Assembly (NCBI GenBank): GCA_029862125.1
Contig: JAOTXY010000005.1
Location: 1 to 64,000, forward strand
Length of the DNA: 64,000 nucleotides
DNA from: Gammaproteobacteria bacterium
GTDB taxonomy: Bacteria; Pseudomonadota; Gammaproteobacteria; GCA-001735895
Direction of reading: 5' to 3'
Shown here: one piece after another, positions 24,613 to 43,391 of the stretch
How the letters are laid out: each line of letters opens with the position of its first letter
Position numbering within the stretch: the first letter of the stretch is position 1
Made by a program: the position numbers and the translations under genes
Notes under the pieces: generated by a model
What the model saw: only the letters and a program-made list of their open reading frames with translations
Database searches by the model: none
What the model was told of the DNA's origin: nothing

Positions 24613-25356
24613 TTATAGTTGATTCTTACCCGATTGTTGGGATTCAAACAGTTTCTGTTGAAAATCCAACAGTTTTGATTCTAGAAACCGCTTCTCGTCC
24701 GGGTCGCTGATCGAACCCGATTGTATTAACGCCTGGATTATCGCGATGGCAGATTCAAATTCGTTCATGTCCGCGAGCAGCAGAAAATGGATGTCCCGTG
24801 CCCAATTCGGCATAACCACGCTGGCAGGTTGCAATGCGAGCTTCTCTGCTATGCGCAACGCCAGCTTTAAATCCCCGAGTCGGTGCTTGGCCAGCACGCT
24901 TGCTTCTGCGAGGCGGCGCCAGTGCAACTGTGGGTTATGGTCAAAGGTTCGCTCGATAAAACTCAGTATTAACCTTAATCGCGCCTTGTCATGCGTCTGG
25001 CTGTAGACTCGCGAAGCCAGAAGCATTGGGTACTCCGAGCGGGGATTGATTTCACTGATCTGTTCCAACCAGTCTACGAGTCGATCATAATCGATTCTGC
25101 TATAGCTGAAATGCCGCCCCATCTGGTTGTCATGTAACTGCAGGCGGATCGCGAGCAAATAACCCAGTAGTTGATCCGATCCCATCGAAATACCCCGGTA
25201 GGTCGACGCCTGCAAGGGATTAGTAAGCGGCTGATAGCTGGCCTCGAGTTGTGCCTGGCTGGAGTAGTGAAACAGCAGCTGGCAAAACAGCATCAGCGCG
25301 AATCCCCACAGCAAGGGCCACGGTAATTGCGTAATGGAACGCGCCGCTCGCCGCAT
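24613..25356 (-). CDS. Membrane-anchored TPR-like protein of unknown function
   Basis: N-terminal TM LLWGFALMLFCQLLF then helical repeats (YPMLLASRVYSQTHDKARLRLILSFIERTF; LADMNEFESAIAIIQALI). Confidence 0.6.
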   Translation of the reverse strand: MRRAARSITQLPWPLLWGFALMLFCQLLFHYSSQAQLEASYQPLTNPLQASTYRGISMGSDQLLGYLLAIRLQLHDNQMGRHFSYSRIDYDRLVDWLEQISEINPRSEYPMLLASRVYSQTHDKARLRLILSFIERTFDHNPQLHWRRLAEASVLAKHRLGDLKLALRIAEKLALQPASVVMPNWARDIHFLLLADMNEFESAIAIIQALIQSGSISDPDEKRFLESKLLDFQQKLFESQQSGKNQL

Positions 25357-26136
25357 CTAAAGACTGAACTCCTTGCGATAAAAATCAACCAGGCAAACGG
25401 CTATCAGAAACAGTGCGTAGATTACGGTGGAATAAAATTGAACTGAAAGCGACTGCAGTAGATCGACATTGCCAAAAAAAACATTATTGTTGGCAAAACT
25501 GTCCAGATCCGGCAGCAGGTATAAAATTGCGCTAAAAATTAAATCCACGAACCGGCTGGTCAGGCTACCGTCCGATAACCTGACCGATTCTTCCAGCATT
25601 TGGGATATCAGGCCTGACAGCCTGGCGAGCAGGTATGTCGCCATCGAAAAGCAAACCGCCAGGGGAATTTTTTCAAGACTTATTATCGTCAGCATGCCCA
25701 ATAGGCCGAGCAGGAAGATTTCAAGCCACAGCGCGCTCGCCCAGTAGAGACCAACCAGCCAGTCACTGTAGAGCGAGATGACCAACAGGACCGGCAGCAC
25801 CAGCCACAGGCACAGGCTGGCGATGACCAACACCTGCGCAGCGACATACTGCCAGCGCGCCAGCGGCATCGTCAGCAGGCGCTCGAACTGTCTGAATTCA
25901 TAGTCCTGGGAGACACTGGTGGTGATTACCAGCAAGGCAAATAATCCAAGCGCGTAGCGCAGAAAATCCGCCACCAGTGCAACCACGATCTGGTTGCTGT
26001 CGATAATCGCAAGCTCGCTAAAAAAACCGCCGACCAGCATCGCCAGTACCGCGAGCACTAATGTCAATAACAGCAGGCGCCGGCTCAGAATTCCCAGCAT
26101 CAGGTATTTAAACAGTGCTATAGTTTGAGCGAACAT
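25357..26136 (-). CDS. ABC-2 type transporter permease
   Basis: Six-TM hydrophobic protein with YEFRQFERLLTMPLARWQYVAAQVLVI typical of ABC-2 permeases; ATG at 26136 is likelier than the upstream GTG at 26151. Confidence 0.72.
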   Translation of the reverse strand: MFAQTIALFKYLMLGILSRRLLLLTLVLAVLAMLVGGFFSELAIIDSNQIVVALVADFLRYALGLFALLVITTSVSQDYEFRQFERLLTMPLARWQYVAAQVLVIASLCLWLVLPVLLVISLYSDWLVGLYWASALWLEIFLLGLLGMLTIISLEKIPLAVCFSMATYLLARLSGLISQMLEESVRLSDGSLTSRFVDLIFSAILYLLPDLDSFANNNVFFGNVDLLQSLSVQFYSTVIYALFLIAVCLVDFYRKEFSL

Positions 26137-26152
26137 TCGAGTTTTTGGCACC

Positions 26153-27832
26153 TTGATTAGAATAAATTCCCTACTGCAATTCGGTCAGCAAATCCTGGCA
26201 TCGACGTTGCTCACCTACCATATTTTGATCTGGGTGGTCGACGATAGCCAGTTGGAATTTGCGTTATCGTTCATATTGTATGGCCTATTCCTGCTCTGGC
26301 AACCTCTGTGGAATAAAGAAACTGTAGTCGATAAAAAGCGAATTGCATTCCTCGCGCTCGTATTTATCAGCATCACCTATGCCTTCCCAAATGAATCGCT
26401 GGTTTTCTTCGGCTTGATACTGTCTGGGCTAATCGGCAGTCGCCTGCTCGGCCAGACCGCATTCCGCTCTTTCGACCTGCTGGCACTGCTGATCATTATT
26501 CTCGAAATGGCGATCGGGGTTGTGCCAGCAACGTTCGAGCAGATCAAATTACCCGCGCTATTTGCCGATTACATGCAGACCATTATATTGATCCCGGTGT
26601 TGTTGTTTTACTTTGCGCCCAATCCCGATCATCAGAAGCAGGGACGCAGCCAGGTCGACTTGATGCACGGATTGCTTGCAGCAACCCTGCTGTTTATCGT
26701 GTTGCTCGGCGGCATCGTCATCAACCTGCTTTACGGCGTGGATTATATCGACGGCCTGTTATTGACCGTGTTCATCGTTTCTACCCTGACCATCGGCATC
26801 AGCTGGTTCTGGAACCCCGGGGTGGGTTATTCCGGTATCGGCGTGTTATGGAATCGTTACGCGATGACCATCGGCGGGCCATTTGAAAGCTGGATTAACA
26901 AGCTGACCACGCTAATCGAGGAACGTTACCTGACGCCTGGCGAGTATCTCGAGGCCGCCTGTGAAAACCTGGTCGAGAACGAGTGGTTGAACGCTATCGA
27001 ATGGCATTTCGAAAATTTCAAAGTCAGCGCCGGGGAAAAAACCGGTACCCGTCTCGAGCACCCACTGACGAAAAACCTGAACGTGGTGCTGTATTTCAAG
27101 GCTGACCCCGGGACCGCGCTGGAACAGCATACGATCCTGTTGATACGCATGGCTTACCAGTTTTACCTGGCCAAGCTGAACCAGGAAAAAATACGCGCAC
27201 AGGAACATTTTGCAACCATTCATCACACCGGCGCCCGGCTCACCCACGATATCAAGAATATTCTACAATCCATCAAGACGTCGATCGATATTCTCGCCAT
27301 GGACAAGGATTCTCAGAATTCGCAGCAATTATTGCAAGCCAACCTGAAACAGATCGGGACGCGCCTGGAAAACACGCTGAATAAGCTAAAGGCGCCAAAA
27401 CTCGACACCCAGGTCAGCCTGGTCGATTGCCACAAGTGGATTAAGCGCATCGGCAAGCAACATAACGCGAATGAACGTATGCACTTTCACAGCGACATCG
27501 ACAACAACGTGACTTTACCGATCGATTTGTTTGACAGTGTCGCTGAAAACCTGATCAATAATGCGCTCAAGAAAACATCGGCGAAACGAATCGATGTGCG
27601 CCTGTTATCGAACAGTGATGTCATTATATTGTCAGTTTGCGACGACGGCGATGCGATTTCAGCGGAGATTGAAAAGAACCTGTTTGCACAACCGGTTTCG
27701 TCCGGCAGCGGCATGGGTATCGGCCTGTACCAGTCGGCAATCATGGCGCTTGCGTTTAACTACGAACTCGAACTAAGCCAGAACGAACGCGGCCGCGTCT
27801 GCTTTAACCTGTTCCAGAACCTGGCGGAATAA
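26153..27832 (+). CDS. PrsK-like membrane histidine kinase (N-terminal TM block, GAF-like region, HATPase); TTG start
   Basis: HHTGARLTHDIKNILQSIKTSIDIL H-box, ENLINNALKK N-box, VCDDGDAIS and GSGMGIGLYQSAIMA G-boxes; multi-TM N-terminus. Confidence 0.75.
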   Translation: MIRINSLLQFGQQILASTLLTYHILIWVVDDSQLEFALSFILYGLFLLWQPLWNKETVVDKKRIAFLALVFISITYAFPNESLVFFGLILSGLIGSRLLGQTAFRSFDLLALLIIILEMAIGVVPATFEQIKLPALFADYMQTIILIPVLLFYFAPNPDHQKQGRSQVDLMHGLLAATLLFIVLLGGIVINLLYGVDYIDGLLLTVFIVSTLTIGISWFWNPGVGYSGIGVLWNRYAMTIGGPFESWINKLTTLIEERYLTPGEYLEAACENLVENEWLNAIEWHFENFKVSAGEKTGTRLEHPLTKNLNVVLYFKADPGTALEQHTILLIRMAYQFYLAKLNQEKIRAQEHFATIHHTGARLTHDIKNILQSIKTSIDILAMDKDSQNSQQLLQANLKQIGTRLENTLNKLKAPKLDTQVSLVDCHKWIKRIGKQHNANERMHFHSDIDNNVTLPIDLFDSVAENLINNALKKTSAKRIDVRLLSNSDVIILSVCDDGDAISAEIEKNLFAQPVSSGSGMGIGLYQSAIMALAFNYELELSQNERGRVCFNLFQNLAE

Positions 27833-27834
27833 AC

Positions 27835-28695
27835 TTAAGGGAGTTGTCCTGCTTCGATCATCTTCGAGTAGAGCACGTTGGTTGAAATCCATCTGACTCG
27901 GTCATCATATTCAGCGCCTGACACGTCGCTGTTGGTCGAAAAAGTATAGACGAAGTCGTTGGTTCCATCGTTAAAATCATCCTGGTTTTCAGACTGGATA
28001 TTGGAAGCGACTAGACCGATGTCTTTACCGGTGGAAATCACCACGACGGCGACATTGGTGACTACATTGTTTGCGCTAACACCGGCACAGTTGGTATCGG
28101 TCGCAGACGAATTATCGCTGTCATCACAAACAACAAGATTTGGAGTCACATTAGACAAGCCTTCCTCGCCGATTCCGTCCGGTGAAACCAGGTCGTCTGC
28201 TTCTCCGGTCAAGGGATCAGCGTCGACACCTCCACCTGTGTCGTTCCGATTGATGTTAGACACATGGTAACGGTAGGGCTCACCCCAGGGGTCTAGCAGG
28301 CGACCGAGGGAATCGAAATCCCCGTTTATGCCAAGCGTTCCCGCCGGCACAAAACCCGAGAAACCCTTGCAACTATCAGGCAAAGTGTCATTCCCAGCAA
28401 CACTGGTTGCATTAATAATCTCGTCATCGAAATCCTCCTCGCCATTGAGAGTGCCCGGGGTACCCGTGCCGTTGACATCACCCGAGCTATCGGGGCAGGG
28501 CAGCCGTCTGTTGACCTGGGCAAAACCAATCAGGTGCTCGATGATCTGGTCCATTTCGATTTGAAGCTGGCGATACTGTTTCAATTCCTGCTGCACAGGG
28601 TACAAAGCCACCGTGTAACCAAGCAGTATCGCGACAATCAGCAACACGATCGCAACTTCAATCAGGGTGAATCCATGTTGGTCAGCAGTTTTCAT
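27835..28695 (-). CDS. Large prepilin-like protein
   Basis: MKTADQHGFTLIEVAIVLLIVAILLGYTVALYPVQQELKQYRQ; LPCPDSSGD and DPWGEPYRY segments. Confidence 0.82.
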   Translation of the reverse strand: MKTADQHGFTLIEVAIVLLIVAILLGYTVALYPVQQELKQYRQLQIEMDQIIEHLIGFAQVNRRLPCPDSSGDVNGTGTPGTLNGEEDFDDEIINATSVAGNDTLPDSCKGFSGFVPAGTLGINGDFDSLGRLLDPWGEPYRYHVSNINRNDTGGGVDADPLTGEADDLVSPDGIGEEGLSNVTPNLVVCDDSDNSSATDTNCAGVSANNVVTNVAVVVISTGKDIGLVASNIQSENQDDFNDGTNDFVYTFSTNSDVSGAEYDDRVRWISTNVLYSKMIEAGQLP

Positions 28696-28700
28696 GAATC

Positions 28701-31034
28701 TTAGGTATCGTCCAGTATCAACATGGCATCATCCCCATCATTGGGATGCGCAGCAAAAACATCATCTAACGGCGTCAAATTCTCGCCTTCAAAGATGGTC
28801 AATAGATCGCCGACATTTGCTGGAATCCTGCCCGCGCCCACCAGCAATGAAGCCTTGTTGTTGGTTTCCCCGGTGTAATCGTCGGTTACCGTTAGGCATG
28901 GAGGGGTAGTGCCGCAGTCTGGCGGAGAAGATAGTGATCCAGGCTGGTAATCGGCCGCGTATGCCATCAGCAGGGAATCGTTCCAGTTGTTCAGCCTTAC
29001 CCACAAGGGTAGTTCAGGATAATAATCGGCCGTGATATCCAACTGGTTCAAGGTTGCCGTAAAATTCAGGGTTGGCGTACAGTAGAAGCTGCCGGCATCC
29101 GGGTTAGAATTCCAGAAAGTATTAAATGTAGTTCCAACATTCCTATCCTCCTCACAAAACACCGTAATATTGAAAAAGTTGATGGGATCGGCAAAACTCG
29201 AAGCGACATCGACTGCCAGATCGGTAACCGGTTCAAGCCCAGGTGTCAGCAAACTACCGGTTACCGGATCAATCTGGGATGCGGGATTGAGCAAAGCCTG
29301 AAATCGTGCATTGGCACCAACTGTTGGGGCGACTGGTGGATTGATAGTCGGCGGATTGTTCAAATAGGTCAGGCCAACCTGGAACCGGGCATCCATATGA
29401 TGCAGGAGTACAACCATTCTTATCTGGATATCAGCATGAACGGCCCAGTCGGTATAGGGTTCAAAAAAAGTATTGGTCGGGTCTCTGGCGCAATCTGTTT
29501 CAGCCGTCGCCGGTGCATTGCACAATTGCCAGCCATTCGCTGCAAGTTCATCCCAGAAATATCGAAACTCCATGTAACCTATCCTGATTTTAATATTTTC
29601 ATGATTGGTCCAGGCGGTAAAGGGTTCAAAAGCGAAAGTTCCAGGGTTTTTGGCACAATCGGTTATATTCGTCGCCGGGAGTTCACACAATTGCCAGCCA
29701 TCTTCCGGTTCAGGACAGGAAGCACAACCGTCCCATAAATACACCTGTTGACTAAATCCGCTAGTGCCATCGGCAATATCTCCAATGTTAGCCCCATCGG
29801 TAACAATGACGTCGCTATCGCTGATTAAGGTGCCGAGATCGTCCGTGGACAGATTGGCTGACGTATCGAAGGTTTCCTGCTTGAAAGACAGGTTAGATCT
29901 CGGAATAGTGAGATTTTGCGCGCCGACAAATAATCCATCGAAAGCGCTAATGTAAGTTGGGTCAAAAGGATCTGCAGTGTCAGAAAGACCGGTGAAATCG
30001 AGCAGATAGTCAACCGACAGATCGGTAATCACTGTATGCGAATCATGGTCGGTAAAATAATTTAGAAAGGGTACCCGCCCCACCGTATTGCCAGGCAATA
30101 CATCATAAACGTTCAGATCCGTGATATCGGCATAGGCGTTCATCCATGGATAGCGATAATCATTGACTACCGCGAGCCAGATAGTTTGCTGGTAATCATC
30201 GATCGCGGCGCGGTAAGCCTCCAGCACAGCCCTTTCCGCTATCGCACTGACTTCCTCGGCGGTCACCAGGATAAACTGGTCGTTGACATTATCACTAACC
30301 TGGTAACCGTTACCCCCCAGCACAAATCCATCCACGGCGCCCCCCTGGGTCACCGTCGCGTTGTCCTCCGTGCCGGCAACCAGGTCGAGATAGTTGACCG
30401 GATTGATAATGCCTGGTTCGGTATCCGCAGTGGTATCGAACGGGTCTTCGATGCCGGTACTGCGGTCCTGCGCGGTTCCATTGCGATCGATGGCGGCGCC
30501 AGGGGCGATAATTACCGCGGCGATGCCATAATTGATCAGGCTATCGGGATTGGAACCGTCATACATAACATTTCCCCCGGGGGCTCTGACCGTCAAGGTT
30601 CCCGAGGTATCGCTGTTGACAATGGTGCTGGTGTTGGTGGCAAAAGTGCTTGATACCGTGTACCAGAGACGCTGGCCATCGGCATCCCGGAGATCGTTGA
30701 GACCCAGCGCGGGTTCAGCCCACGGAAACCGGCCAACGTCGTCACAATCACCAAAGGTTGTATTAGAGCTCCCGTCGTTATCCGTATCCGCGCAGGGCAA
30801 ACGCCCTGGTCCCCCGGTGCCGCCACTGATTACCGGGTAGTTGTAGGCATATTGCAGCAAAGCTCGCTTGGCTTCCACGAGCACACGCTTGTTATGCAGG
30901 TATCGCTCTTGCTCCGCATCCTGCCTGGCTTGCTGGGTAAATCCGACAACCACGACCCCGCTGAGCCCCATGAACGCCAGCACCGCTAGCAATAGTGCAT
31001 AGCCGGACTGATTCCTGAGACGGCACGTTTTCAT
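28701..31034 (-). CDS. Very large (777 aa) PilX-like prepilin with an internal 55-aa duplication
   Basis: MKTCRLRNQSGYALLLAVLAFMGLSGVVVVGFTQQARQDAEQERYLHNKRVLVEAKRALLQYAYNYP N-terminus; two GWQLCxxPAT...TDCAxxP...FEPxTxW units. Confidence 0.72.
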   Translation of the reverse strand: MKTCRLRNQSGYALLLAVLAFMGLSGVVVVGFTQQARQDAEQERYLHNKRVLVEAKRALLQYAYNYPVISGGTGGPGRLPCADTDNDGSSNTTFGDCDDVGRFPWAEPALGLNDLRDADGQRLWYTVSSTFATNTSTIVNSDTSGTLTVRAPGGNVMYDGSNPDSLINYGIAAVIIAPGAAIDRNGTAQDRSTGIEDPFDTTADTEPGIINPVNYLDLVAGTEDNATVTQGGAVDGFVLGGNGYQVSDNVNDQFILVTAEEVSAIAERAVLEAYRAAIDDYQQTIWLAVVNDYRYPWMNAYADITDLNVYDVLPGNTVGRVPFLNYFTDHDSHTVITDLSVDYLLDFTGLSDTADPFDPTYISAFDGLFVGAQNLTIPRSNLSFKQETFDTSANLSTDDLGTLISDSDVIVTDGANIGDIADGTSGFSQQVYLWDGCASCPEPEDGWQLCELPATNITDCAKNPGTFAFEPFTAWTNHENIKIRIGYMEFRYFWDELAANGWQLCNAPATAETDCARDPTNTFFEPYTDWAVHADIQIRMVVLLHHMDARFQVGLTYLNNPPTINPPVAPTVGANARFQALLNPASQIDPVTGSLLTPGLEPVTDLAVDVASSFADPINFFNITVFCEEDRNVGTTFNTFWNSNPDAGSFYCTPTLNFTATLNQLDITADYYPELPLWVRLNNWNDSLLMAYAADYQPGSLSSPPDCGTTPPCLTVTDDYTGETNNKASLLVGAGRIPANVGDLLTIFEGENLTPLDDVFAAHPNDGDDAMLILDDT

Positions 31035-31036
31035 AA

Positions 31037-31483
31037 CTAGCCTCCAACAGCTGCCAGGTAACTGACCTCGAGAGTCTCGCCGCTGGTAGCATAGTAATTT
31101 TTACCGTCCGGCGCGGTAATCCTGACCCTGATTTCGTCGCCGACCATGACCTTGATCTTGCTCCTGTCTTCGAGTTCTGCGCCATCTTCGTAAGCAGTCG
31201 AGTTGATCCAGACGGTATGTGGCCCGTCTCGTGAAATGGTGATACCGGAAACCTTGTATTGGCGGGTTACTGCCTCCTGATACAATTGCTGTACTGGAAC
31301 CTCGATCGTGTCTTCGACCACAACCTTTGGCTTGGTGTTCCCGTAACGGTTCGAATCGATAAGTTCACGTTCTTGCGGGGTCGTGAACAGTGTCGATAAC
31401 TCGGCTGCGGCCGCATGACTCCCGGTTAATAGTAAAACCTGGAATCCGATAACTACCTTGATTGTTACACGACTACTTGGCAT
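31037..31483 (-). CDS. Small exported PilP/MshK-like protein
   Basis: Signal peptide IKVVIGFQVLLLTGSHAAAAEL; SGITISRDGPHTVWINSTAYEDGAELEDRSKIKVMVGDEIRV resembles the MshK/PilP/GspC homology region; position after the PilO-like gene. Confidence 0.6.
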   Translation of the reverse strand: MPSSRVTIKVVIGFQVLLLTGSHAAAAELSTLFTTPQERELIDSNRYGNTKPKVVVEDTIEVPVQQLYQEAVTRQYKVSGITISRDGPHTVWINSTAYEDGAELEDRSKIKVMVGDEIRVRITAPDGKNYYATSGETLEVSYLAAVGG

Positions 31484-32069
31484 CGATTGTCACCCAACGG
31501 ATAGTGCATCTTGTGCGCAGATTCGGTTTTTGGGTGTCCAGCGAGCGACCGATAGGGGTACTACGGGTCATCGAACAACTATCCACCGTGAACAGGCTTC
31601 TTATCGACTGACGCAAAACTTCCAGCAATGCAAATAAGTCTTCTTCGTGCAGCATACCGATCGACAATTCCATGGGTGAACTCTTCACCACCACATCGCG
31701 CTTGACTTTGAAGTCCGGACGCTTGAAATTTTCCTGCGGTTGCAGATTATAGGTCAGGGTCGGCAGACGCAGCTCCCGGTTGGCGGACTGGAGGCTTTCA
31801 ATCCAGCTTAGTCGGCGCTCCTTGCCTACCAGTCCGGAAGCCTTGTATTCGTTGTAGAGGTTACGGAACTGCTCAATCAATTCGAGATCTCTGACTAAAT
31901 TACTGTAGCGCTTATGGGTTGCACGTAGCTCGCCAACTGCCTTGTTATAGTCTTTCTGTTGCGCGGACTCATATTGGTAGCCAGCGACTATCAGGGCCGC
32001 AGACACCAGAATCGCCACGCCAAGCATAATCAGTGGCCGTATCAGGTAGCGCCAATCAATCTTACTCAC
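31473..32069 (-). CDS. PilO/GspM-like protein (GTG start)
   Basis: Single N-terminal TM (LIMLGVAILVSAALIVAGYQY) followed by coiled coil and periplasmic domain; preceded by GGGAGGTG and overlapping the upstream stop. Confidence 0.62.
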   Translation of the reverse strand: MSKIDWRYLIRPLIMLGVAILVSAALIVAGYQYESAQQKDYNKAVGELRATHKRYSNLVRDLELIEQFRNLYNEYKASGLVGKERRLSWIESLQSANRELRLPTLTYNLQPQENFKRPDFKVKRDVVVKSSPMELSIGMLHEEDLFALLEVLRQSIRSLFTVDSCSMTRSTPIGRSLDTQKPNLRTRCTIRWVTIDAK

Positions 32070-33657
32070 TCTTAGGCACCTCCCTGACGACACGAAAACC
32101 AAGCTGGGCCACTAAGTTTCGGTTTTTACTCGCGGTACCTGCATCGCCAGTCAGACGATTGGTGGACTCAATGTTTAGCGGGCGCTTGGTAATTTGCACC
32201 GAATAATACTTACCCGATTCAGCCATCGTCTTTTCGAGATCGTCAACGGCACTGAGCACATAGCGATAATTGCCGTCAAAGTTGAGGAATTCGCCCTCAA
32301 CCTGGGCAATTTCAAAATACCCTTTCTTGGGCTTGGGAGCGTTCTTGTCCTGGTTCCTGTTGCGCTTAGGCCTCTTGGGCTTGACCCAGTCAACATCGTT
32401 AATACCGGTACTGCTCGAGTAGTTGGAAACAAACCAGTCGACCTTCTTGATGCGGATATCAGGAAAAATACTGACATCGTTACTGATCAAAGCCAGTAGT
32501 TCCTCCGGGTCACGCAGGTATCGTTTCTCGAGGGAATCCACGGTTTGCACAATATTCTGCATGCCAAGGGTCGAGGTAGCAGCGTCGACGCGATTCTCGC
32601 TAAGCTGATTAAACTTGGCCTTGTATTTCTGTTCAATCAGCGTGGTATCAGCGATGGTATCCCGGTAGAGAAATCCCTTGATCCCACTGGTCAATGCTAT
32701 CCCCAGGCCAAGCGCAATCAACGCGATACTGGCAGCGCGCAACCCCAGGCCAGCCTGGTGATGTCGAAAGATGCGACGCTCACTCGGCCTGGCATAATGG
32801 TTGAGCACCATTTTCTTGCTCGCCAGGTAGCAATAGAGTCCCGAGCTGAAGTCCTGCTCGTCCTCAACGTCAATTTTTTCACGTTCCAGTAGCTGGTTGA
32901 TTTCATAGATCTTGAAATCGAAATAACTTTCCTGTTCACAGCGCGCCGTCAGTTTATCGAAATGTCGCTTGTCGGTCAGGATGTGGACCGCCACGGTTTG
33001 CGAGCGTTCGACAATACGCTGGCTAATCAGGTAACGTTGTGTCGATTCGACATCGCGTAACACGTCGGAGGCATAATCACCCTGGTAAAAGCTCGCAATC
33101 GGCACCAGGCGACTCAGCACCAGTTTGCCATCGACGAAGACCGATTGGCGCAGGTTGCTGGGTACCTGCTGGCTTACCAGTATGACCGCCCTGTGTTCAG
33201 ACTTCAGTTCCTTGATATAATTTTCGGATAATAACGGTAAGCTGATGATGCCCGACAACGGCGTTCGAGTTTCTTCAACAATGTTCAACCAGGGCTCAAG
33301 TAACGATTGATTGGTAAGACCAATCATTAGTAACTTTTCTTCCTTGCGATCTTTCTTTTCCACCGACTGTGAAATCGCAAACCGGTACTCTGAAGTTCGG
33401 AAATACTTGGCAAAGTTACGCTTGAGGATAGCCTGCCTGTCGGAACCGCGTAACAAGGGAACTTTTATCTGGCGGAATTCTTCTTCAATCAAGTCTACCA
33501 AAAGGCGCACCGGCTCATTGTCGAACGAGCGTAAGTAAGAACTGAACAAGTCCAGTCCCTGGTCATCGGGTTCGAAGTAAACACTACTCATTAATTGATG
33601 GCCGGACCACTCCTGCGCGACCATTCTGTAACCCGTAAAATATAGAACTCTTCTCAT
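32062..33657 (-). CDS. GspL-like (PilM-PilN fusion-like) assembly protein
   Basis: About 320-aa cytoplasmic N-terminal part, single TM AASIALIALGLGIALTSGI, about 200-aa periplasmic part with PilN-like region; start at MRRVLYFTGYRMV. Confidence 0.6.
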   Translation of the reverse strand: MRRVLYFTGYRMVAQEWSGHQLMSSVYFEPDDQGLDLFSSYLRSFDNEPVRLLVDLIEEEFRQIKVPLLRGSDRQAILKRNFAKYFRTSEYRFAISQSVEKKDRKEEKLLMIGLTNQSLLEPWLNIVEETRTPLSGIISLPLLSENYIKELKSEHRAVILVSQQVPSNLRQSVFVDGKLVLSRLVPIASFYQGDYASDVLRDVESTQRYLISQRIVERSQTVAVHILTDKRHFDKLTARCEQESYFDFKIYEINQLLEREKIDVEDEQDFSSGLYCYLASKKMVLNHYARPSERRIFRHHQAGLGLRAASIALIALGLGIALTSGIKGFLYRDTIADTTLIEQKYKAKFNQLSENRVDAATSTLGMQNIVQTVDSLEKRYLRDPEELLALISNDVSIFPDIRIKKVDWFVSNYSSSTGINDVDWVKPKRPKRNRNQDKNAPKPKKGYFEIAQVEGEFLNFDGNYRYVLSAVDDLEKTMAESGKYYSVQITKRPLNIESTNRLTGDAGTASKNRNLVAQLGFRVVREVPKSE

Positions 33658-33667
33658 ATCAATTCCG

Positions 33668-34873
33668 TTAAAAATCGATCGTGGCGATGGTATCGTAAAT
33701 CGGGCCAAGCACTGAAAGTGCCAGCCAAAGAACGATGATGCCGATGGTCGCCATCAACGCAGTCTGCAAAACCGGCTCCATTGCCTCGATACTGTCGTTG
33801 ATGTCGCGATCAAAAAAGTAACTCACGTTGTTCAAAGATTTGTCCATTTGGCCACTGGCTTCGCCAACTCGCAGCATGCGTACGACCAGCGGTGGGAAAA
33901 TCCCGATATTCTTAAACGCCTCGCTAATGCTGCTACCCTCCGAAATCTGCTGCCAGGCACGATCGATCCCGTCTTCTAGAACGGCATTACTGACCACGGC
34001 TTTGCTCAGGTCGATGGCATCCAGTACGGTTATACCGGAGGCAAACATCAGCGCGAAATAACGCGTAAAGCGCGAAATCTTGATCTTTTCACTAACCGGG
34101 CCGATCACCCATAGCTTCAGCATCACTCCGTCCAGGTTGAACCGCGCCTTGCTACTCGAGTTGTAGAAATACTTGAGGGTGAAGAAAATCACGAACGGTG
34201 CGGCAATTACCGCGTACCAGTAATTGATCAAGAAATCCGATGTCGCCATCAACAATCGCGTTTCCAGTGGAATCTTACCGCCCAGCGAAACGATAGCGTC
34301 CATGATATCCGGCACCACGAAAATCATCATGAACAGGATTACCGACATTACCAGGGTGCCGATAACCGCGGGGTAGGTCATTATTTTTTTGGCCTTTGCG
34401 AGCAATTCATCCTGCCATTTCAGGGTTTCGGTGATGTCGACCAGTACCTCGCTCATCTTACCGCTGCGCTCACCTACGCGAATCAGGCTGACAAAAACAT
34501 CATCGAATACTTTTGGGTATAGCTCGAGCGCCTGCGAGAATGTGTTACCACCTTCAATCGCTTCAATCAGGCCGGTCACAATATCTCGAAAGGTCGGATT
34601 TTCCTCGCCATCGCGCAGATCGGCAAGGCCCTCCAGGATTGGCACCCCGGCTCGGGTCAGTTGTTCCAGGTAAAACGAGAAGTTGATTAAGTCCCGGCGC
34701 CCAATCTTGTTGCGGCCGAACATGTCGGAACCCGGGGTCTTTTGCTTGAACGTGACCAGGTCCAGGTCCATTTTTTCGAGGCGCACCTCAAGATCATTGC
34801 TATTGCCGGCATCGAGACTACCCGAGATGAATTTACCGGCGGGGTCTATGGCCTTGTACTGGAAAAGTGGCAT
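33668..34873 (-). CDS. GspF/PilC/MshG-like inner-membrane platform protein (second copy)
   Basis: MPLFQYKAIDPAGKFISGSLDAGN...LEQLTRAGVPILEGLADL...RVGERSGKMSEVL...ASGITVLDAIDLSKAVV. Confidence 0.92.
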   Translation of the reverse strand: MPLFQYKAIDPAGKFISGSLDAGNSNDLEVRLEKMDLDLVTFKQKTPGSDMFGRNKIGRRDLINFSFYLEQLTRAGVPILEGLADLRDGEENPTFRDIVTGLIEAIEGGNTFSQALELYPKVFDDVFVSLIRVGERSGKMSEVLVDITETLKWQDELLAKAKKIMTYPAVIGTLVMSVILFMMIFVVPDIMDAIVSLGGKIPLETRLLMATSDFLINYWYAVIAAPFVIFFTLKYFYNSSSKARFNLDGVMLKLWVIGPVSEKIKISRFTRYFALMFASGITVLDAIDLSKAVVSNAVLEDGIDRAWQQISEGSSISEAFKNIGIFPPLVVRMLRVGEASGQMDKSLNNVSYFFDRDINDSIEAMEPVLQTALMATIGIIVLWLALSVLGPIYDTIATIDF

Positions 34874-34875
34874 GC

Positions 34876-36582
34876 CTAATCCATCCGCTCGGTCATGTCG
34901 GCGACCCGAGCGACCTCTTTAATCGAGGTGATACCCTCTATGATGTGACGAATCCCGTCATCAGCGAGGGTAAAGAATCCCTGCTTATAGGCTGCATCCC
35001 TGATTTCCTTGGTGGTTGCTCCATGCGCGAGCAAGTCGTCGAGATCCGAATTCATTTTCAGTATTTCGAGCAAAGCCATGCGCCCCTTGTAACCGGTATT
35101 ATCACAGGTGGTACAACCCTTGGCCCGGTAAATCTTGGTTGGTATTTCTCCCCGATTATTACTCAGCATGCGCAGCTCTTCCTCGCTCGGTGTGTGAGCA
35201 ACCTTGCAGTACTTGCAAAGTTTGCGAATTAAGCGCTGGGCGATAACGCCGATAATATTACCCGCCATGATTTCCGGGATAATGCCGATATCCCGAAGCC
35301 TCGGGAGCGCGCCGATGGCGGAATTGGTGTGCAGTGTCGAATAGACCTGGTGACCGGTCATGGCTGCGCGAAAAGCCATTTCAGCAGTTTCCTCGTCACG
35401 CACCTCACCCACGAGGATAACGTCCGGGTCCTGGCGCATCAGCGATTTAATGCCATTTGAAAAATCCATCCCGGCAGCATCATTAACCGAGGTTTGTCGG
35501 ATCAACGGGAAAGGATATTCGACCGGATCTTCCAGTGTCATGATATTAATCTGTTCGCTACTGAGAAAGTTCAACAGCGAGTAAAGTGTGGTGGTTTTAC
35601 CGCTACCGGTCGGACCGGTAACCAGAATGATACCCTCGGGGCGTGACATCATGATCTTGAGGGTGCGCAATGATTCCGCAGGCAGCTCGAGTTTTTCTAG
35701 CGGAATAACGCCTTTTTCACGGTCAAGCACCCTGAGCACTATATTTTCGCCGTGAATCGTCGGTTGCGAGGCAACGCGAAAGTCTATCTGCCGGCCCACG
35801 ATGGTACGCGAGATACGACCATCCTGTGGCGCACGAGTTTCGGCGATGTTCATGTCTGCCATAACCTTGAGACGCACTGCGATCGCCGCCCAGTAAGTCT
35901 TGTGCAGGCTTCGAATCTGGCGCAGCACCCCGTCGATCCGGTAGCGGATGCGCAGGAAGCTTTCTTCAGGTTCGAAGTGCAAATCCGAGGCGCCGCGCTT
36001 GACCGCATCGGAAAGCATGACATCCACCAGGCGCACCAGCGGTTGACTGTACTCTTCGATATCACCCTGGTAGTTGGTATAGTCGGCTTCACCGGTTTCG
36101 ATTTCGCGCAGAATTCCATCGATCGATAACTCGTAACCGTAGAACTGGTCGATCGCATTGGATATTTCGGCTTCACCGGCGAGCACCGGTATTAGTTCGA
36201 TATGCTGACCTATCTGGATTCGAATTCGGTCCAGCGTAAACAGGTTGAAGGTATCCGACATCGCGATCGTCAAAGTGCTGCGGATCGGGTCGTAATTGAG
36301 CGGGATGATTTTGTGCTTGCGTGCGGTGTCAGAATTGATCATTTTGATCGCATCCGGGTCAGGCACCACGCGCGACAGGTCAACACTTTCCTGCTCCAGC
36401 GCTTCTCCGAGCGCCGAGCGCATTATGGCTTCAGTAGCAAAACCAAGATTCACCAGCAACTTACCTAGCGGCTCGTGAACCTTTTTCTGTTCGGTTAAGG
36501 CGATATTCAACTGATCTTCGGTGATAACACCTTCATCCATCAGGATCTCGCCCAAACGCTTGGGCTTGTTTTCTGCGTTCAT
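34876..36582 (-). CDS. GspE/PilB/MshE-like assembly ATPase (second copy)
   Basis: GPTGSGKTTTLYSLLNFL, Asp box, DPDVILVGEVRDEETAEMAFRAAMTGHQVYSTLHTN, RLIRKLCKYCK zinc motif. Confidence 0.95.
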   Translation of the reverse strand: MNAENKPKRLGEILMDEGVITEDQLNIALTEQKKVHEPLGKLLVNLGFATEAIMRSALGEALEQESVDLSRVVPDPDAIKMINSDTARKHKIIPLNYDPIRSTLTIAMSDTFNLFTLDRIRIQIGQHIELIPVLAGEAEISNAIDQFYGYELSIDGILREIETGEADYTNYQGDIEEYSQPLVRLVDVMLSDAVKRGASDLHFEPEESFLRIRYRIDGVLRQIRSLHKTYWAAIAVRLKVMADMNIAETRAPQDGRISRTIVGRQIDFRVASQPTIHGENIVLRVLDREKGVIPLEKLELPAESLRTLKIMMSRPEGIILVTGPTGSGKTTTLYSLLNFLSSEQINIMTLEDPVEYPFPLIRQTSVNDAAGMDFSNGIKSLMRQDPDVILVGEVRDEETAEMAFRAAMTGHQVYSTLHTNSAIGALPRLRDIGIIPEIMAGNIIGVIAQRLIRKLCKYCKVAHTPSEEELRMLSNNRGEIPTKIYRAKGCTTCDNTGYKGRMALLEILKMNSDLDDLLAHGATTKEIRDAAYKQGFFTLADDGIRHIIEGITSIKEVARVADMTERMD

Positions 36583-38627
36583 TTTATTGCTAGCAACTCC
36601 AGTCGCTGATCAACGACGTCCCTGTTGAACGTCGCGGGTCCATTCCCTAAATTATCCAACGCACGCCGGTAGTAAGTAATCGCACTTCCAGGCTGGGAGA
36701 TATGCTCCAGGCTAACGGCCAGGTTATAGGCATAGTTTGGATCTCCCGGATTGCTCTGTAGAGCCCTGAAGTAATGTCCCTGTGCTTCCTGCCAACGATT
36801 TTGCGCGCCATATACATTCGCCAGTGCAAAATTCAAATGCGGTGAACTGGGCTCTTCACGAATCATCAGTTTCAACTGCGACTCGGTTTCCCAAGGCGAG
36901 TAATTAGCAACCGTTATCAACGAGGCCATCGCCAACGAATCCTTGGGATTGGCCAGCAACAAGGCCTGGTAGTCCTTGATCGCGGCGGCGCCGTCACCAT
37001 TTTGAACATTGATAGCGGCACGCGCCAGTAGTGCATTGCGGTTACCTGGATCTTGTTCAAGCACCTGGTTATAGCGAGCCAATGCGAGGCTAACATTTCC
37101 CGCTTTATAGGCATCATAGGCTTCACGCAGCAAGACATCTCTTTGCCCAATCTGGCTGCTCGATGAAATCTGGAGGTTTGAAGAACTGCTTTCAGGCTCC
37201 GACGCCTCAACTTCGATCTGCGTGATACTCGTGACTTCGGTATTTGTTATTTGCGCGCTTTGAGTTTGCTGCTGGCCTACAACAGCGACTTCGATCTCAG
37301 GCTCCCTCGCTGTCACTTCGGAGTCAACTGTTTCGACAGCCTCCTCGATTTCGGTTGATCCGGTGGCAACTTCCTCGATGCCGGCGGCAGTACTCTCGGC
37401 ATTTTCAATTATTTCAATCGTGCGCACATCTGCGGCAGGTTCGGCCTCGGCAAATAAATTCGTATCCTGCTCCTGATTACCGGGTTTAATCAGGCCGGGC
37501 ATTGGATCACGCTTGAGCGGTCGTAAACCGGTATCAATTTTATGTGCTTGATCCTGAAACTCGAAGGCACCAAAGATGCCAATTCCAAGAAATATCACTA
37601 CCATGATTCCTGCGTAAATCTTGAAGTTATGCAGGCGCTGCGCCGACGACTTGCTGCGAAAAACTTTCTTCGCATAGTCTGGCGTCATCACGGCATCGGA
37701 TTCATTTTTCATGCCTGCGAATAACCTCGACGCATCTTCACTCGGAAGTTTCATCAAGGTGCGATCATAGTTATCCGGGGCGTAGGTGTATGTCCCGGTG
37801 GAATCTGTTCGCGTGGCAGTGGATTGGGTATCGACATTAGTACCGGTAGGGCTGGTTTGCGTTGCCGACCGGGTTTGAGTTACATCATCGGGAAGCTTGT
37901 GCCGCGTCGTGTCCTGCAACGCAAGACCGTCGCTTCCGGCGTCGTCACCTTTTAGGGTTTCGGTCTGATCCTGCGGTAATTTTGGATCAGTCAGCGACGT
38001 ACGCGCGGTAAAATCTGTATTATCCCGCTCAACCAGCAATAGCGACATATCTTCTTGCGACTCGGTCAGGTCAAGCTCGGTCTTGCTGTGGGTGGGTTCT
38101 GAATCTTGCTGCGGGACATTTGTCTGGTGATAAGTTTGATCGACCTCGGTTTCATCTTCCGCCGGCGATTCATCGTGTGGCTCGATATGCGTCTGAACTT
38201 CAGTCTGATCATCACCAGGCCGGTCTTGCGGCTGACGGTTGACCAGCTCCGGCTCACCCATAAAATCTGAAACATCTCCGTCGGCAAAAATGATGGTTTC
38301 ATCCTCACCAGTTTGCATCTGCGTGCTTAAATCTGTGTGCTGCGTCTCGGTTTGGTCGGGGATTTCAGTTCTGGTTTCATCAGTACCGCGTTCAAGGTGG
38401 GTATCCTCATGTTGGGTCTGCAACCTGGAATCGTCTATTTGAGTCTCATCCTCTAGTTCGCGCCGGGAACTTTGTAGCACATTATCTGCATCTTCCAGCT
38501 CGGAAATATCTTCCGGTGCCGAAACCACGATGGTTTCATCAGACGTTTCCGCTTGCGGAATATCTTCCCTGCTCTTTTCCGCCTTTTGCTCGGCGGCTTT
38601 CTTGAGCGCGTCTAGCAGTAAACTCAT
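36579..38627 (-). CDS. TPR protein with acidic low-complexity N-terminal region (MshN-position analogue)
   Basis: MSLLLDALKKAAEQKAEKS N-terminus, D/E/T/Q-rich region, TM IYAGIMVVIFLGIGIFGAF, C-terminal TPRs (DVLLREAYDAYKAGNVSLALARYNQVLEQDPGNRNALLARAAI). Confidence 0.78.
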   Translation of the reverse strand: MSLLLDALKKAAEQKAEKSREDIPQAETSDETIVVSAPEDISELEDADNVLQSSRRELEDETQIDDSRLQTQHEDTHLERGTDETRTEIPDQTETQHTDLSTQMQTGEDETIIFADGDVSDFMGEPELVNRQPQDRPGDDQTEVQTHIEPHDESPAEDETEVDQTYHQTNVPQQDSEPTHSKTELDLTESQEDMSLLLVERDNTDFTARTSLTDPKLPQDQTETLKGDDAGSDGLALQDTTRHKLPDDVTQTRSATQTSPTGTNVDTQSTATRTDSTGTYTYAPDNYDRTLMKLPSEDASRLFAGMKNESDAVMTPDYAKKVFRSKSSAQRLHNFKIYAGIMVVIFLGIGIFGAFEFQDQAHKIDTGLRPLKRDPMPGLIKPGNQEQDTNLFAEAEPAADVRTIEIIENAESTAAGIEEVATGSTEIEEAVETVDSEVTAREPEIEVAVVGQQQTQSAQITNTEVTSITQIEVEASEPESSSSNLQISSSSQIGQRDVLLREAYDAYKAGNVSLALARYNQVLEQDPGNRNALLARAAINVQNGDGAAAIKDYQALLLANPKDSLAMASLITVANYSPWETESQLKLMIREEPSSPHLNFALANVYGAQNRWQEAQGHYFRALQSNPGDPNYAYNLAVSLEHISQPGSAITYYRRALDNLGNGPATFNRDVVDQRLELLAIK

Positions 38628-38636
38628 GCGTCTTCT

Positions 38637-40205
38637 CTATTGCCCGGAGAAAATTTCAGGTTTCAGGTATTGTTTGAAATCCCGTAAATTTGTTTCAAGG
38701 CTGGCACTATCGATGACGCGTGGGCGCAGAAATATTACCAGTTCGGTTTTATCAAACTCGCGCTCCTTGGTGCCAAACAAAATGCCGAATCCCTTGGCAT
38801 CATGGAGCCCTGGTAATCCTCTATCATCTTTACTGGCGGTATCCTGCATCAATCCACCGATAACGGCGGTATTACCACTTGCGACCCGAAGCACCGACTC
38901 CATTTCACGGACCTGGATTTCAGGTATCTCGGATACGACACCGGCAGCCGCAAGCGCGGGATTGGGATCCTCGACGAATCTCAGTATGCGCGTGATGGTA
39001 GGACGTATATTAAGTATTACCTCGTTGCCGGCGGTTATGAACGGTGTTACGTTCATAACAAATCCAACCGGAACCGTTTTCGCGGTGGTATTAAAAGTTT
39101 GCGTTATTATGGGCGTGGTGCCGCCGGAGGTATTACTAGTTGCATCTATCTCGAAATAGACCGTGTTATCGGCAACTTTCAGTATCGAGGTCTGATTATT
39201 CAGGGCCATGATTTTCGGGCTCGACATAACCGACACTTCACCAAAGGAGTCCAGCGCCTTGATGGCGCCCGAGATATCCCGATCACTGTTGCTATTGGCG
39301 TAGGTGGCAGACGTAAACGGGGTTGTACCCAGTGTGCCGCCGAGCGTACTCTGTTCCAGGCTCCAACCATCACCCACGGCAATTCGCGACCAGTCGACGC
39401 CAGCCTGGAACTCATCATTGAGCGTAACTTCAACCACGGTGGCCTCGATTAGCACCTGCCGGCGCGCGCTTCCCATCACGGAGTCAACGAAACGCTGAAT
39501 ATTTTCGTGCGCCGCGGCGGTAGCCATTACCGAAATGGTTCCGGATTCTCGATTGGAGATTACCGTACCCTGGGTCCCACCGGTACTGGCCAGTAATCCA
39601 ATATTAGCTTCCAGCGATTGCCAGAATTCGTTGCTCGATTCGTTAGTTACCGAGGTCGACGAATCGCCACTGCTGCCGCCATCTTCGCCACCTCCTGCCA
39701 AAGCGGTTTCGATACCAACGCTGGAAGTAGTTGTTCTTGACATATTGAGATAGTCAATATGATATTGACGGACGAAAGGTCGATCTTGTTCGATTACAAG
39801 GTTGGGACCGTCGAGATAATAATGTAGCTGCACCTGGCGCGAGACACGCTTTAATATCTGGGGCAGGGTCTGGTCAATCGCATTGATACTGACACGACCA
39901 TCGATCGCAGGATCGATATCCAGGTTCAGTCTGGCATCGCGCGCCAGCGCGAACAGCAATTCATTTGCCGGCAAATCTGTCGCAACCACAGTGAATGTTT
40001 GCATTGGTTCTGCGGGTTCGGGTGCCGAAATAATTGGCACCTGCTCGACAACCGGGGGTATCCCGGGGTCGGCTTGCTCAACTGCCGGCGACGGTGTATC
40101 AACATGACCTTCTACAACGGTCATCCGTTCATCCCTGTCTTCCATAAAACTTGCACAGGCTGACAGGTTGATAAGGGCAATTAACAAAACTATTTTTTTC
40201 ATCAC
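38637..40205 (-). CDS. MshL-like outer-membrane secretin (second copy)
   Basis: Lipobox LINLSACAS; STN/N1 region; EATVVEVTLNDEFQAGVDWSRIA...VMSSPKIMALNNQTSILKV...VGFVMNVTPFITAGNEVILNIRPTIT...TELVIFLRPRVI. Confidence 0.92.
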   Translation of the reverse strand: MMKKIVLLIALINLSACASFMEDRDERMTVVEGHVDTPSPAVEQADPGIPPVVEQVPIISAPEPAEPMQTFTVVATDLPANELLFALARDARLNLDIDPAIDGRVSINAIDQTLPQILKRVSRQVQLHYYLDGPNLVIEQDRPFVRQYHIDYLNMSRTTTSSVGIETALAGGGEDGGSSGDSSTSVTNESSNEFWQSLEANIGLLASTGGTQGTVISNRESGTISVMATAAAHENIQRFVDSVMGSARRQVLIEATVVEVTLNDEFQAGVDWSRIAVGDGWSLEQSTLGGTLGTTPFTSATYANSNSDRDISGAIKALDSFGEVSVMSSPKIMALNNQTSILKVADNTVYFEIDATSNTSGGTTPIITQTFNTTAKTVPVGFVMNVTPFITAGNEVILNIRPTITRILRFVEDPNPALAAAGVVSEIPEIQVREMESVLRVASGNTAVIGGLMQDTASKDDRGLPGLHDAKGFGILFGTKEREFDKTELVIFLRPRVIDSASLETNLRDFKQYLKPEIFSGQ

Positions 40206-40229
40206 GTTATTCCAGTTAATATCCGACTG

Positions 40230-41993
40230 CTATAGCAAAGCTTTCTGCATTCGATATACCGAATGCAGGTAAGGTGAATTTTTCTTTACCGACTCGGGCA
40301 GGCGCTGCAGTTGATTCCTGCCATTCGATAAAGAATTAAATTCACTGTAGAAAACCCGGTAAATACTCCTTGTATCAGTATTTACTTCATATAAATAAGT
40401 TTCCGATAAATCCAACGGCCATTCATTACGTAAATAATAGACCAGTTCTCGCGCAGCGGATTTACTACGCATCAAAACCTGGATCGACACATTGTCCCGG
40501 TTTGCATTACTGAGCCAGTTACGGCTCTCTCTCAATTTTGCATTTAGCCACTGATTGTAATCCTCGGTCAAGCCCAGATCATTGCTATTCCCGGTCTCTA
40601 GCGCGTCAGTTGAAGCGGCCTGGTCGAGCGCACTCTGCAGGACTTCGTCTTCAGCCAGCTGCGCTGGCGCAGATTCAAGCGGTGTCTTCTCTGTTAACTG
40701 ATTTAAGGTTACATTGACAGGTACTACCACTTCTTCAACCTGCTTCTCTAAAGCTTCGGATTCCTGCTTTTCTGAGGTTACATTGGCAGAAACTAAAACT
40801 TCTTCAACCTGCTTTTCCAAAGCTTCTGATTCCTGCTCCCCTAAGGCCGTTAATTCCTGCTTCAGTGAAGCCGGAATTTGTATCTCCTCTACTACCGTTT
40901 CAGACTGCACCGGGGCCGGGCTCATTTCCGGTTCCGTATTCGCCATAACCGGGACCTTATTCTCGTCAGTTTCCAATGCCTGCGGCGTAATATCTGTGAT
41001 CGGATTGACGTTTTTCACAGCATTTTCATGTTTTGGTGTCAAATCCGAGGCCTGGATAGAGCTCCAAATGTCCGCGATCTTTACCGAGATCCATTGTGAT
41101 CGAGTTTCGTATAGTGCAAATGCCAGGGCTATTATGAGTAATATGCCAAGCCACCACAGAGCGCGTGATTTGCGCGGTGCTTTCTGGTTAAAGGCGCTAT
41201 CGTTTACGGCGGCGGTTACGTGCTTGGCGCTGAGGTTGTGAGTACCTTCTGCAAACGCGGAGAGCAGAATTTTATCGGCGATGATATTGATGCGGCGCAG
41301 CAGCCCATCCGAATGCAGTTCCACTTTCTTCGCGACCGTGGGGTTGATTAATTCAGGCCCGGTGTAACCCACTTCACGCATTCGAAAGTTCAGATATGTA
41401 TGAATTTCGTCCTGGGTCAAAGGTTCAAGATCAAAATTGTGGGTAATGCGTTCGCGCAACTGGCGGATAGACTGTTGTGACAGGTTCTGATCCAGCTCGG
41501 GCTGGCCAAATAGGATAATTTGTAACAATTTATTCTGGTCTGTCTCAAGATTTGATAGTAATCGGATTTCCTCAAGGGTATCGAGCGGCATGCCCTGCGC
41601 TTCTTCGATGAATAAAACGACCTGCTTGTTTTCCATATGTCGCTGCAACAGGTAGTCCTGCAACAGATGCATGACTTCATGCTTGGAAGAATCCCTGGTA
41701 ACCGGCAGCGACAACTCGTGCGCGATCACGAACAGGATGTCTTCCGATGAAACACTCGGATTGGCGATGTAGACGATTTCGACCGTGTCCGGCAGTTTGA
41801 TCTGTAGCATACGGCACAACATGGTCTTGCCGCTGCCCACTTCTCCAACTACCTTGATGATGCCTTCGCCACGGTGGATGGCGTAAACCAACGCAGCGAG
41901 AATATCGCCGCGCTTGCCACCTTCGTAAAAAAGACTGGTGTCCGGAGTGATTTTGAACGGGGGACGCTTGAGGCCGAAATAATCTTCGTACAT
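40230..41993 (-). CDS. ExeA/MshM-like AAA ATPase with C-terminal TM and SPOR-like domain (second copy)
   Basis: MYEDYFGLKRPPFKITPDTSLFYEGGKRGD; GEVGSGKTMLCRML; VVLFIEEAQGMPLDTLEEIRLLSNLET; TM ALWWLGILLIIALAFALYE. Confidence 0.88.
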   Translation of the reverse strand: MYEDYFGLKRPPFKITPDTSLFYEGGKRGDILAALVYAIHRGEGIIKVVGEVGSGKTMLCRMLQIKLPDTVEIVYIANPSVSSEDILFVIAHELSLPVTRDSSKHEVMHLLQDYLLQRHMENKQVVLFIEEAQGMPLDTLEEIRLLSNLETDQNKLLQIILFGQPELDQNLSQQSIRQLRERITHNFDLEPLTQDEIHTYLNFRMREVGYTGPELINPTVAKKVELHSDGLLRRINIIADKILLSAFAEGTHNLSAKHVTAAVNDSAFNQKAPRKSRALWWLGILLIIALAFALYETRSQWISVKIADIWSSIQASDLTPKHENAVKNVNPITDITPQALETDENKVPVMANTEPEMSPAPVQSETVVEEIQIPASLKQELTALGEQESEALEKQVEEVLVSANVTSEKQESEALEKQVEEVVVPVNVTLNQLTEKTPLESAPAQLAEDEVLQSALDQAASTDALETGNSNDLGLTEDYNQWLNAKLRESRNWLSNANRDNVSIQVLMRSKSAARELVYYLRNEWPLDLSETYLYEVNTDTRSIYRVFYSEFNSLSNGRNQLQRLPESVKKNSPYLHSVYRMQKALL

Positions 41994-41996
41994 GTC

Positions 41997-43391
41997 TTAG
42001 TCCTTGACCTCTAGCCGATCCATGCGGCCATACAAAGTAGTACGATTGATGCCAAGCATTTCAGCCGCCTTGCTGACATTGCCATCGTGCTCACGCATCG
42101 CCAGGTCGATAACTTCTTTTTCGACAGCCTTAAGCAATTGATCAAGCTGAAAACCGCTATCTTGCAATGCACTATGCAGCCAGTCTTCGCTGCTTGACGC
42201 GCCGTTGTGTCGTTGTAGCCCTGACATTTCCCTCTTCAACACCTCGGGCTTTATTGTTTGTCCCGGATACTTCGCTGAAAGCCTGATTATTATATTGCGT
42301 AATTCTCGCACATTTCCCGGAAAAGTATAATCATTCCAAAGCCTTAGTGCATCCTCATCAAGCTGGAAAGTTGCGACTTCATCCGCGACCTGCTGCATGA
42401 AATAAAACAGTAATTCATTCTTGTCACCATTGCGTTCCTTGAGCGAGGGCACACGCAAGGTCAAAACGCTGAGACGATGGTATAAATCTTCGCGGAACTG
42501 GTTGGTTTTTATGGCTTCAAATATATCCTTGTTGGTTGCAGCGAGAACCCGCGCCGAAGAGTGGCGTGGCTGGGTTTCACCAAGTCGATAATATTCACCA
42601 TTTTCGAGTACGCGCAGTAACTTGGCCTGCAGGTCCAGGGGCAGATCCGCGACTTCATCAAGCAATAAGGTCCCCGAGCCGGCTTCTTCGAAAAATCCGT
42701 TCTTGGTGTCCGTGGCACCGGTAAAAGCGCCCTTGACGTGCCCGAACAATTGCGACTCGAGCAACTCGCCGTTGAAAGCGGCGCAGTTCAAGGTCATGAA
42801 GGGTTCCTGTTTGCGCGAACTGCAGCGATGCAGATTGCGCGCGGCGACTTCCTTGCCACTGCCTGATTCGCCTTCGATCAATACCGGGTAGGGCGAATCA
42901 GCTAACTGGCGTATTTGCATACGCAACAGTTCAATTTCTTCGCTGGAGCCGACGATGCCTTCAATGTCATCGTGTCCCGCGTCAGCGCCGCCGCCGGCAA
43001 TTATCTGTCGTTTCAGACGTACCTTGATTTCAGCGATATCGCAGGGCTTGGAGATGAAATCGACAGCCCCGTCTTCCTTGGCCTGAAACAGGTGCTTCTT
43101 GTTATCCTGGCCGGATAATACCAGCACACGGGTCGAGGGGTGCATTTGGGATATCTTTCGAATCACCGCGAGCCCTTCGTCGGGACGATGCGTATTGGGA
43201 GGGAGACCCAGGTCGACCAATGCCAATGTCGGAGAATCCGACATATCACTCATCAACTTGAAGCTGGTAGCCCGATCCGAGGCGCGCTCTATCTCGTATT
43301 CTTCACTGAGCACATACTCGAGACTGTCGGCGATAATTGCATCATCGTCGACCAACAACAGTGTCGGTTTCTTTTCACTGTCCAAAGGCAT
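41997..43391 (-). CDS. PrsR-like sigma54-dependent response regulator
   Basis: Receiver LLLVDDDAIIADSLEYVL...LALVDLGLP; AAA+ GESGSGKEVAARNLH and GHVKGAFTGATDTKNGFFEEA; Fis HTH GNVSKAAEMLGINRTTLYGRMDRL. Confidence 0.9.
   Translation of the reverse strand: MPLDSEKKPTLLLVDDDAIIADSLEYVLSEEYEIERASDRATSFKLMSDMSDSPTLALVDLGLPPNTHRPDEGLAVIRKISQMHPSTRVLVLSGQDNKKHLFQAKEDGAVDFISKPCDIAEIKVRLKRQIIAGGGADAGHDDIEGIVGSSEEIELLRMQIRQLADSPYPVLIEGESGSGKEVAARNLHRCSSRKQEPFMTLNCAAFNGELLESQLFGHVKGAFTGATDTKNGFFEEAGSGTLLLDEVADLPLDLQAKLLRVLENGEYYRLGETQPRHSSARVLAATNKDIFEAIKTNQFREDLYHRLSVLTLRVPSLKERNGDKNELLFYFMQQVADEVATFQLDEDALRLWNDYTFPGNVRELRNIIIRLSAKYPGQTIKPEVLKREMSGLQRHNGASSSEDWLHSALQDSGFQLDQLLKAVEKEVIDLAMREHDGNVSKAAEMLGINRTTLYGRMDRLEVKD

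Follow-up and report, generated by a model that had tools for sequence, protein, structure and literature searches.

Which machine does the gene cluster beside the msh operon of this gammaproteobacterium encode: an MSHA pilus, a secretion system or something of its own? The main survey of type IV filament systems distinguishes the MSHA, T2SS, T4aP, T4bP, Com, Tad and archaeal types and puts the remaining 884 systems under 'generic' (PMC6668835). We addressed the question in a window of 64,000 nucleotides (contig JAOTXY010000005.1, positions 1 to 64,000), where a preliminary description had listed ten minus-strand genes at 27835–41993. Sequences and structural models are best explained by a complete type IV filament machine, which would form its own subfamily akin to MSHA.

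Extent and gene order of the locus

The sequence and its translations bear out all ten genes and the order first described, with open, intact frames and nearly gapless or overlapping spacing. The locus exceeds that interval, covering about 23.05–43.39 kb and 16 genes. The additions are a PrsR-like sigma-54 activator, a PrsK-like kinase, an ABC-2 permease and an ABC ATPase, a 247-aa protein and a 224-aa prepilin. The features, in window coordinates, are:

41997..43391, minus strand: PrsR-like response regulator and sigma-54 activator, first gene (REC, Sigma54_activat and Fis HTH)
40230..41993, minus strand: A, ExeA/MshM-like AAA ATPase with TM and SPOR-like C-terminus (AAA_22; alignment)
38637..40205, minus strand: D, lipoprotein secretin with an MSHA-type domain plan (Secretin Pfam)
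36579..38627, minus strand: TPR protein in the MshN position (TPR Pfam matches at residues 507–663; conserved in order)
34876..36582, minus strand: E, assembly ATPase (MshEN and T2SSE; MshEN c-di-GMP domain half-degenerate)
33668..34873, minus strand: F, inner-membrane platform (T2SSF; own clade in tree)
32062..33708, minus strand: MN, GspL-like fusion of a PilM-like actin domain, TM and PilN-like periplasmic part (AF2 and Foldseek)
31473..32102, minus strand: O, PilO/MshJ-like (position; weak match to the MshJ family, hhalign P 35%, E 4e-4)
31037..31483, minus strand: P, PilP/MshK-like (position; weak match to MshK, hhalign P 24%, E 8e-4)
28701..31034, minus strand: X, large prepilin-like protein with no Glu5, GspK/PilX-like candidate tip subunit (sequence)
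27835..28695, minus strand: prepilin 286, minor pilin candidate (N_methyl; LPCPD motif in common with X)
26153..27832, plus strand: PrsK-like sensor histidine kinase, on the opposite strand (HATPase_c; reverse orientation conserved)
25357..26151, minus strand: ABC-2 type permease (family members match ABC2_membrane below cut-off; conserved)
24613..25356, minus strand: small conserved protein of 247 aa with one apparent N-terminal TM (conserved alignment)
24556..24571, minus strand: predicted sigma-54 (−24/−12) promoter, TGGCACGCTTGGTGCA, 45 nt from the ATG of the 224-aa prepilin
23837..24511, minus strand: 224-aa prepilin, likely major subunit (N_methyl)
23052..23771, minus strand: ABC transporter ATPase, conserved last gene (DrrA/NodI-like matches)

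When loci from the genomes searched and from named contigs were compared, the order PrsR-A-D-TPR-E-F-MN-O-P-X-286-(PrsK reversed)-permease-247aa-prepilin-ABC ATPase proved conserved with few exceptions. Most loci with good coverage, which come from many Gammaproteobacteria families made up mostly of uncultured bacteria, show the full order, and Magnetococcales show part of it; E, F, MN, O, P, D and TPR were each present in 50–52 of the 52 loci with enough flank. Several seeming gene gaps were simply the ends of a sequence stretch and were filled in longer stretches, and a shorter form without the kinase and ABC genes occurs as well (for example L047, L053, L062 and L065). Since the order is kept in dozens of loci from many families, the synteny check first proposed for this cluster indicates that the arrangement is not chance. 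The PilM-N-O-P-like module is indeed placed differently than in the msh operon, following F. Following the direction of transcription, that operon comes before the cluster in the window and after it in genome G077, so the two are not adjacent simply because a tandem duplication was preserved.

Of 369 Gammaproteobacteria genomes, 75 have the MN gene, as do 32 of the 40 genomes of the window's family; it also occurs in other classes of the phylum, among them Magnetococcales, as named contigs show. Named carriers are mostly MAGs and include Thiotrichaceae, Chromatiales, Thiohalobacter and a gutless-worm symbiont; no plasmid-borne MN relatives were found. Genomes of another class (G388, G391, G455, G458 and others) hold two to four MN copies each, some being the N-terminal part of proteins of about 920 aa; in places these are a few kb away from an MN of normal size. 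Much of the locus is also held by a contig titled Klebsiella pneumoniae (L109, CAMCBY010000025.1), probably a mislabelled metagenome bin.

Regulatory genes, prepilins and ABC module

The PrsR-like gene lies 3 nt upstream of gene A and is the first gene in conserved loci. Kinase and activator match the PrsK and PrsR models of the PEP-CTERM/exosortase system best, with scores that fall far below the cut-offs: 345 bits for the activator against TIGR02915 (cut-off 502.6) and 59 bits for the kinase against TIGR02916 (cut-off 300). Unlike their Prs counterparts, the two genes flank a filament locus. A PEP-CTERM regulon was rejected on these scores and on the lack of an exosortase (PF09721), which was not found in the MAG (91% complete); for the latter reason, likeness to Prs proteins does not mean membership of such a regulon.

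By a criterion of at least 9 of 11 matched positions, a sigma-54 site precedes the prepilin gene in 28 of 38 kinase-bearing loci, compared with 0 of 11 kinase-less loci (Fisher p 1.2e-5, uncorrected for kinship, the kinase-less loci being concentrated in few lineages). A clear site was not seen in 10 of the 38 kinase-bearing loci. Shuffled sequences yielded a site in 1.3%. The sites mostly lie 53–96 nt before the prepilin motif; they are not enriched upstream of PrsR, A or most core genes, and low-grade matches occur upstream of MN in 21 of 120 cases. RpoN is present in the genome. Control of a prepilin gene through sigma-54 by a kinase and an activator is the PilSR–RpoN–PilA logic, and the two-component sigma-54 control predicted here resembles that of T4aP with PilSR. 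Because it has its own −24/−12 promoter, as in that logic, the 224-aa prepilin is probably the regulated main subunit.

The N-terminus and a PGD motif of this prepilin are strongly conserved. The cluster had been thought to lack a small major pilin and to hold only large prepilins; this is correct inside 27835–41993 only, and fails for the whole locus once the 224-aa prepilin at 23837–24511 is counted. X and prepilin 286 share homology along about 225 columns (hhalign 99.6%), and X ranges from 250 to 1159 aa in relatives, a variation in length that would suit a lineage-specific tip. Its structural model is moderate (pLDDT 73.6), and no PDB match was found at E <= 0.001. In the neighbouring msh operon, the gene for an MshA-like 140-aa pilin (window 45965–46387, plus strand) runs against all the others, which are on the minus strand; the same inversion is seen in genome G344 (L171), and is not present in other families (L190, L200).

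Neither PilT nor an A24 prepilin peptidase is encoded in the locus. The sole A24 peptidase of the genome (PilD) lies beside PilB in the T4aP locus, so prepilin processing must be shared. The 247-aa protein encoded between permease and prepilin has no Pfam match. An ABC module, PilGHI, is listed with the T4aP genes of myxobacteria, where the reason that it accompanies a filament is not experimentally settled (PMC6060248); by gene content, the cluster is analogous to the Myxococcus T4aP with PilGHI in encoding an ABC transporter together with pilus genes.

Assembly core and its phylogeny

The preliminary description gave five of the core proteins a counterpart in the msh operon. By BLASTP this stands for E (39% identity), F (22.5%), D (27%) and A (42%, A against MshM); no BLASTP match was detectable between the two TPR proteins, whose pairing rests on architecture. 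In E, the Walker A motif is invariant in 106/106 cluster ATPases. Its MshEN domain keeps Gln32 in 106/106 and has lost Gln61, the second c-di-GMP glutamine, in 106/106, whereas Gln61 is kept in 11/11 aligned MshE proteins. Each glutamine contacts c-di-GMP in its own half of the site (Wang et al., PMC5013675), so control of E by c-di-GMP appears doubtful. Secretin D follows a short, MshL-like plan and matches MshL (TIGR02519) best, scoring 246.7 bits where the cut-off is 250.2. Cluster secretins showed none of GspD's three Secretin_N domains, while E. coli GspD, as positive control, gave N0 and all three. Among relatives of A, a SPOR domain scored over the cut-off in one (21.4 against 21) and just under it in another.

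The AF2 model of MN (pLDDT 84.7) comprises an actin-like domain, a TM helix and a periplasmic domain. Its top Foldseek matches were PilM (E 1e-10) and EpsL/GspL (EpsL 1yf5, TMt 0.61); the modelled fold is of the PilM/GspL type. No useful Pfam family was found for MN. Compared with small MSH and T2SS alignments, the O, P and MN profiles gave weak matches only, and none of the profile comparisons matched GspC or GspM.

Trees were built from 106 ATPase, 93 platform and 58 secretin rows; a tree of A was left out owing to one very long row (L056). The cluster ATPases, platforms and secretins each form one clade with support of 99–100. T4aP and MSH are likewise each one clade in the ATPase and platform trees, the MSH and cluster groups each at 100 in E. 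These trees show that the cluster group lies outside the MSHA, T2SS and T4aP clades and is not a recent copy of msh. As had been proposed, it is a distinct machine and not a simple MSHA duplicate, with E, F and D in deep clades of their own; nor is it a T2SS. Its nearest named group in a quick ATPase tree is MSH (89). In a careful ATPase tree, the grouping of cluster with MSH has support of 52/24, and a grouping with T2SS is not rejected (p-AU 0.37); a sister relationship to MSH is only likely. A recent msh duplication is ruled out by identities of 22–42% and the separate clades, and an ordinary T2SS by the trees and the secretin domains.

Further related sequences were also noticed. An E-F-secretin cluster at G240:C52:10300-23400 (L187) forms a long branch at the base of the cluster group in the ATPase tree (97/93) and is possibly a bridging form. 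Another filament-type cluster, found at G000:C164:46000-58000 (L153), L167 and L183, comprises a MshE-like ATPase of about 693 aa, a platform and two prepilins, and its ATPases form their own clade in that tree. Lastly, orphan assembly-type ATPases of about 590 aa, with no other filament genes detected nearby, form a conserved clade in many genomes examined (G000:C99:347-1498 (L154), L169, L172, L175, L180, L191, L194, L199, L202, L203 and L208).

Nature of the machine

Searches of the literature and of family libraries gave no name for a system with this gene set and order, in line with what had first been noted. The parts are all of known kinds, and MSHA is the nearest named kin. With the Vibrio/Aeromonas type of MSHA the cluster shares an MshEN ATPase, a platform, an MshL-type secretin, an MshM-type AAA protein, a TPR protein and a PilMNOP-like set, as well as a locus without prepilin peptidase. 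Of the genes that Denise et al. treat as mandatory for MSH, namely mshA, E, G, L and M (PMC6668835), the mshE, mshG, mshL and mshM classes are all found in the locus, at 22–42% identity; its prepilin is of a different, 224-aa family, and the MshA-like pilin sits in the neighbouring msh operon. T4aP differs in its parts: the cluster proteins lie outside the PilB and PilC clades, and the locus lacks PilT, PilD and a PilA-type gene.

We consider it rather likely that the locus encodes a type IV filament on the cell surface, with a large protein at its tip. The preliminary description had wavered between a pseudopilus or secretion machine and a non-canonical fibre; a regulated pilus is now favoured over a pilin-poor pseudopilus, because the 224-aa prepilin with its sigma-54 promoter, the two-component system and the ABC transporter belong to the locus. 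Against the filament reading, both the large X and the GspL-type fusion also recall a T2SS. In a secretion machine, a T2SS-like pseudopilus with X at its tip might drive a lipoprotein or a small number of specific exoproteins out via the secretin, with the ABC transporter exporting or folding a partner. The cluster has GspE-, GspF- and GspL-like parts, and its X is large, variable and, like GspK, without Glu5. There is no retraction ATPase in the locus, and a canonical GspE-gsp locus was not recovered in the MAG. We give this reading a modest chance. The actin-like protein with its TM helix would be expected of any PilMN fusion; E, F and D fall outside the T2SS clades; and the locus has no GspC, no multi-N-domain GspD and no GspG-H-I-J-K array. 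Moreover, genomes G344 and G148, two relatives, carry a T2SS and the cluster together, and the prepilin is predicted to be under separate sigma-54 control, like pilA genes.

A plain MSHA locus, rearranged and doing the same job as MSHA, would fit the common E, G, L and M classes and the quick ATPase tree. The secretins of 13/20 relatives pass the MshL equivalog cut-off (TIGR02519), and standard annotation would often file the locus as MSHA. This nonetheless seems distinctly improbable, given that the two groups are each monophyletic at full support in E, that MSHA and the cluster coexist in several genomes, and that the careful tree joins them so loosely. The loss of the second c-di-GMP glutamine, the fusion of PilM with PilN, the SPOR-like end of A, the different prepilin set, the predicted sigma-54 promoter of the prepilin, the placing of PilM-N after F, and the dedicated two-component system and ABC-2 transporter also set the cluster apart. 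A decayed or silent duplicate kept by chance could be suspected from the related operon next door and the degenerate second c-di-GMP half-site. We regard it as having next to no chance of being right, since frames are intact over most of >100 loci, catalytic motifs are invariant, the order is kept across families and the identities to msh are low. The locus is, in our reading, one coherent, widespread and unnamed group in the MSHA-like part of type IV filament space.

For the filament favoured here, we infer that the PrsK-like kinase would sense an envelope or surface cue and phosphorylate the PrsR-like activator, which would turn on the 224-aa prepilin from its −24/−12 promoter. The genome's one PilD, from the T4aP locus, would process the cluster prepilins. 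ATPase E would then drive polymerisation on F, under the MN-O-P complex, while prepilin 286 and the Glu5-less X may form a tip complex that primes and caps the fibre. The fibre would exit via secretin D, whose assembly may be aided by the predicted cell-wall-binding protein A and the TPR protein. As the locus lacks a retraction ATPase, the product is probably an adhesive filament on the cell surface, non-retracting or slowly turning. The ABC module may be needed for assembly or for export of a partner, as proposed for Myxococcus PilGHI. A more far-reaching version, in our view unlikely, is a separate type of filament machine as old as MSHA and T2SS, with ABC-2 transporter and two-component system integral to it and growth coupled to ABC export. 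With one kinase, one sigma-54 activator and one prepilin promoter, the locus offers a specific, testable circuit, and it lends itself well to asking why an ABC transporter accompanies some filament machines.
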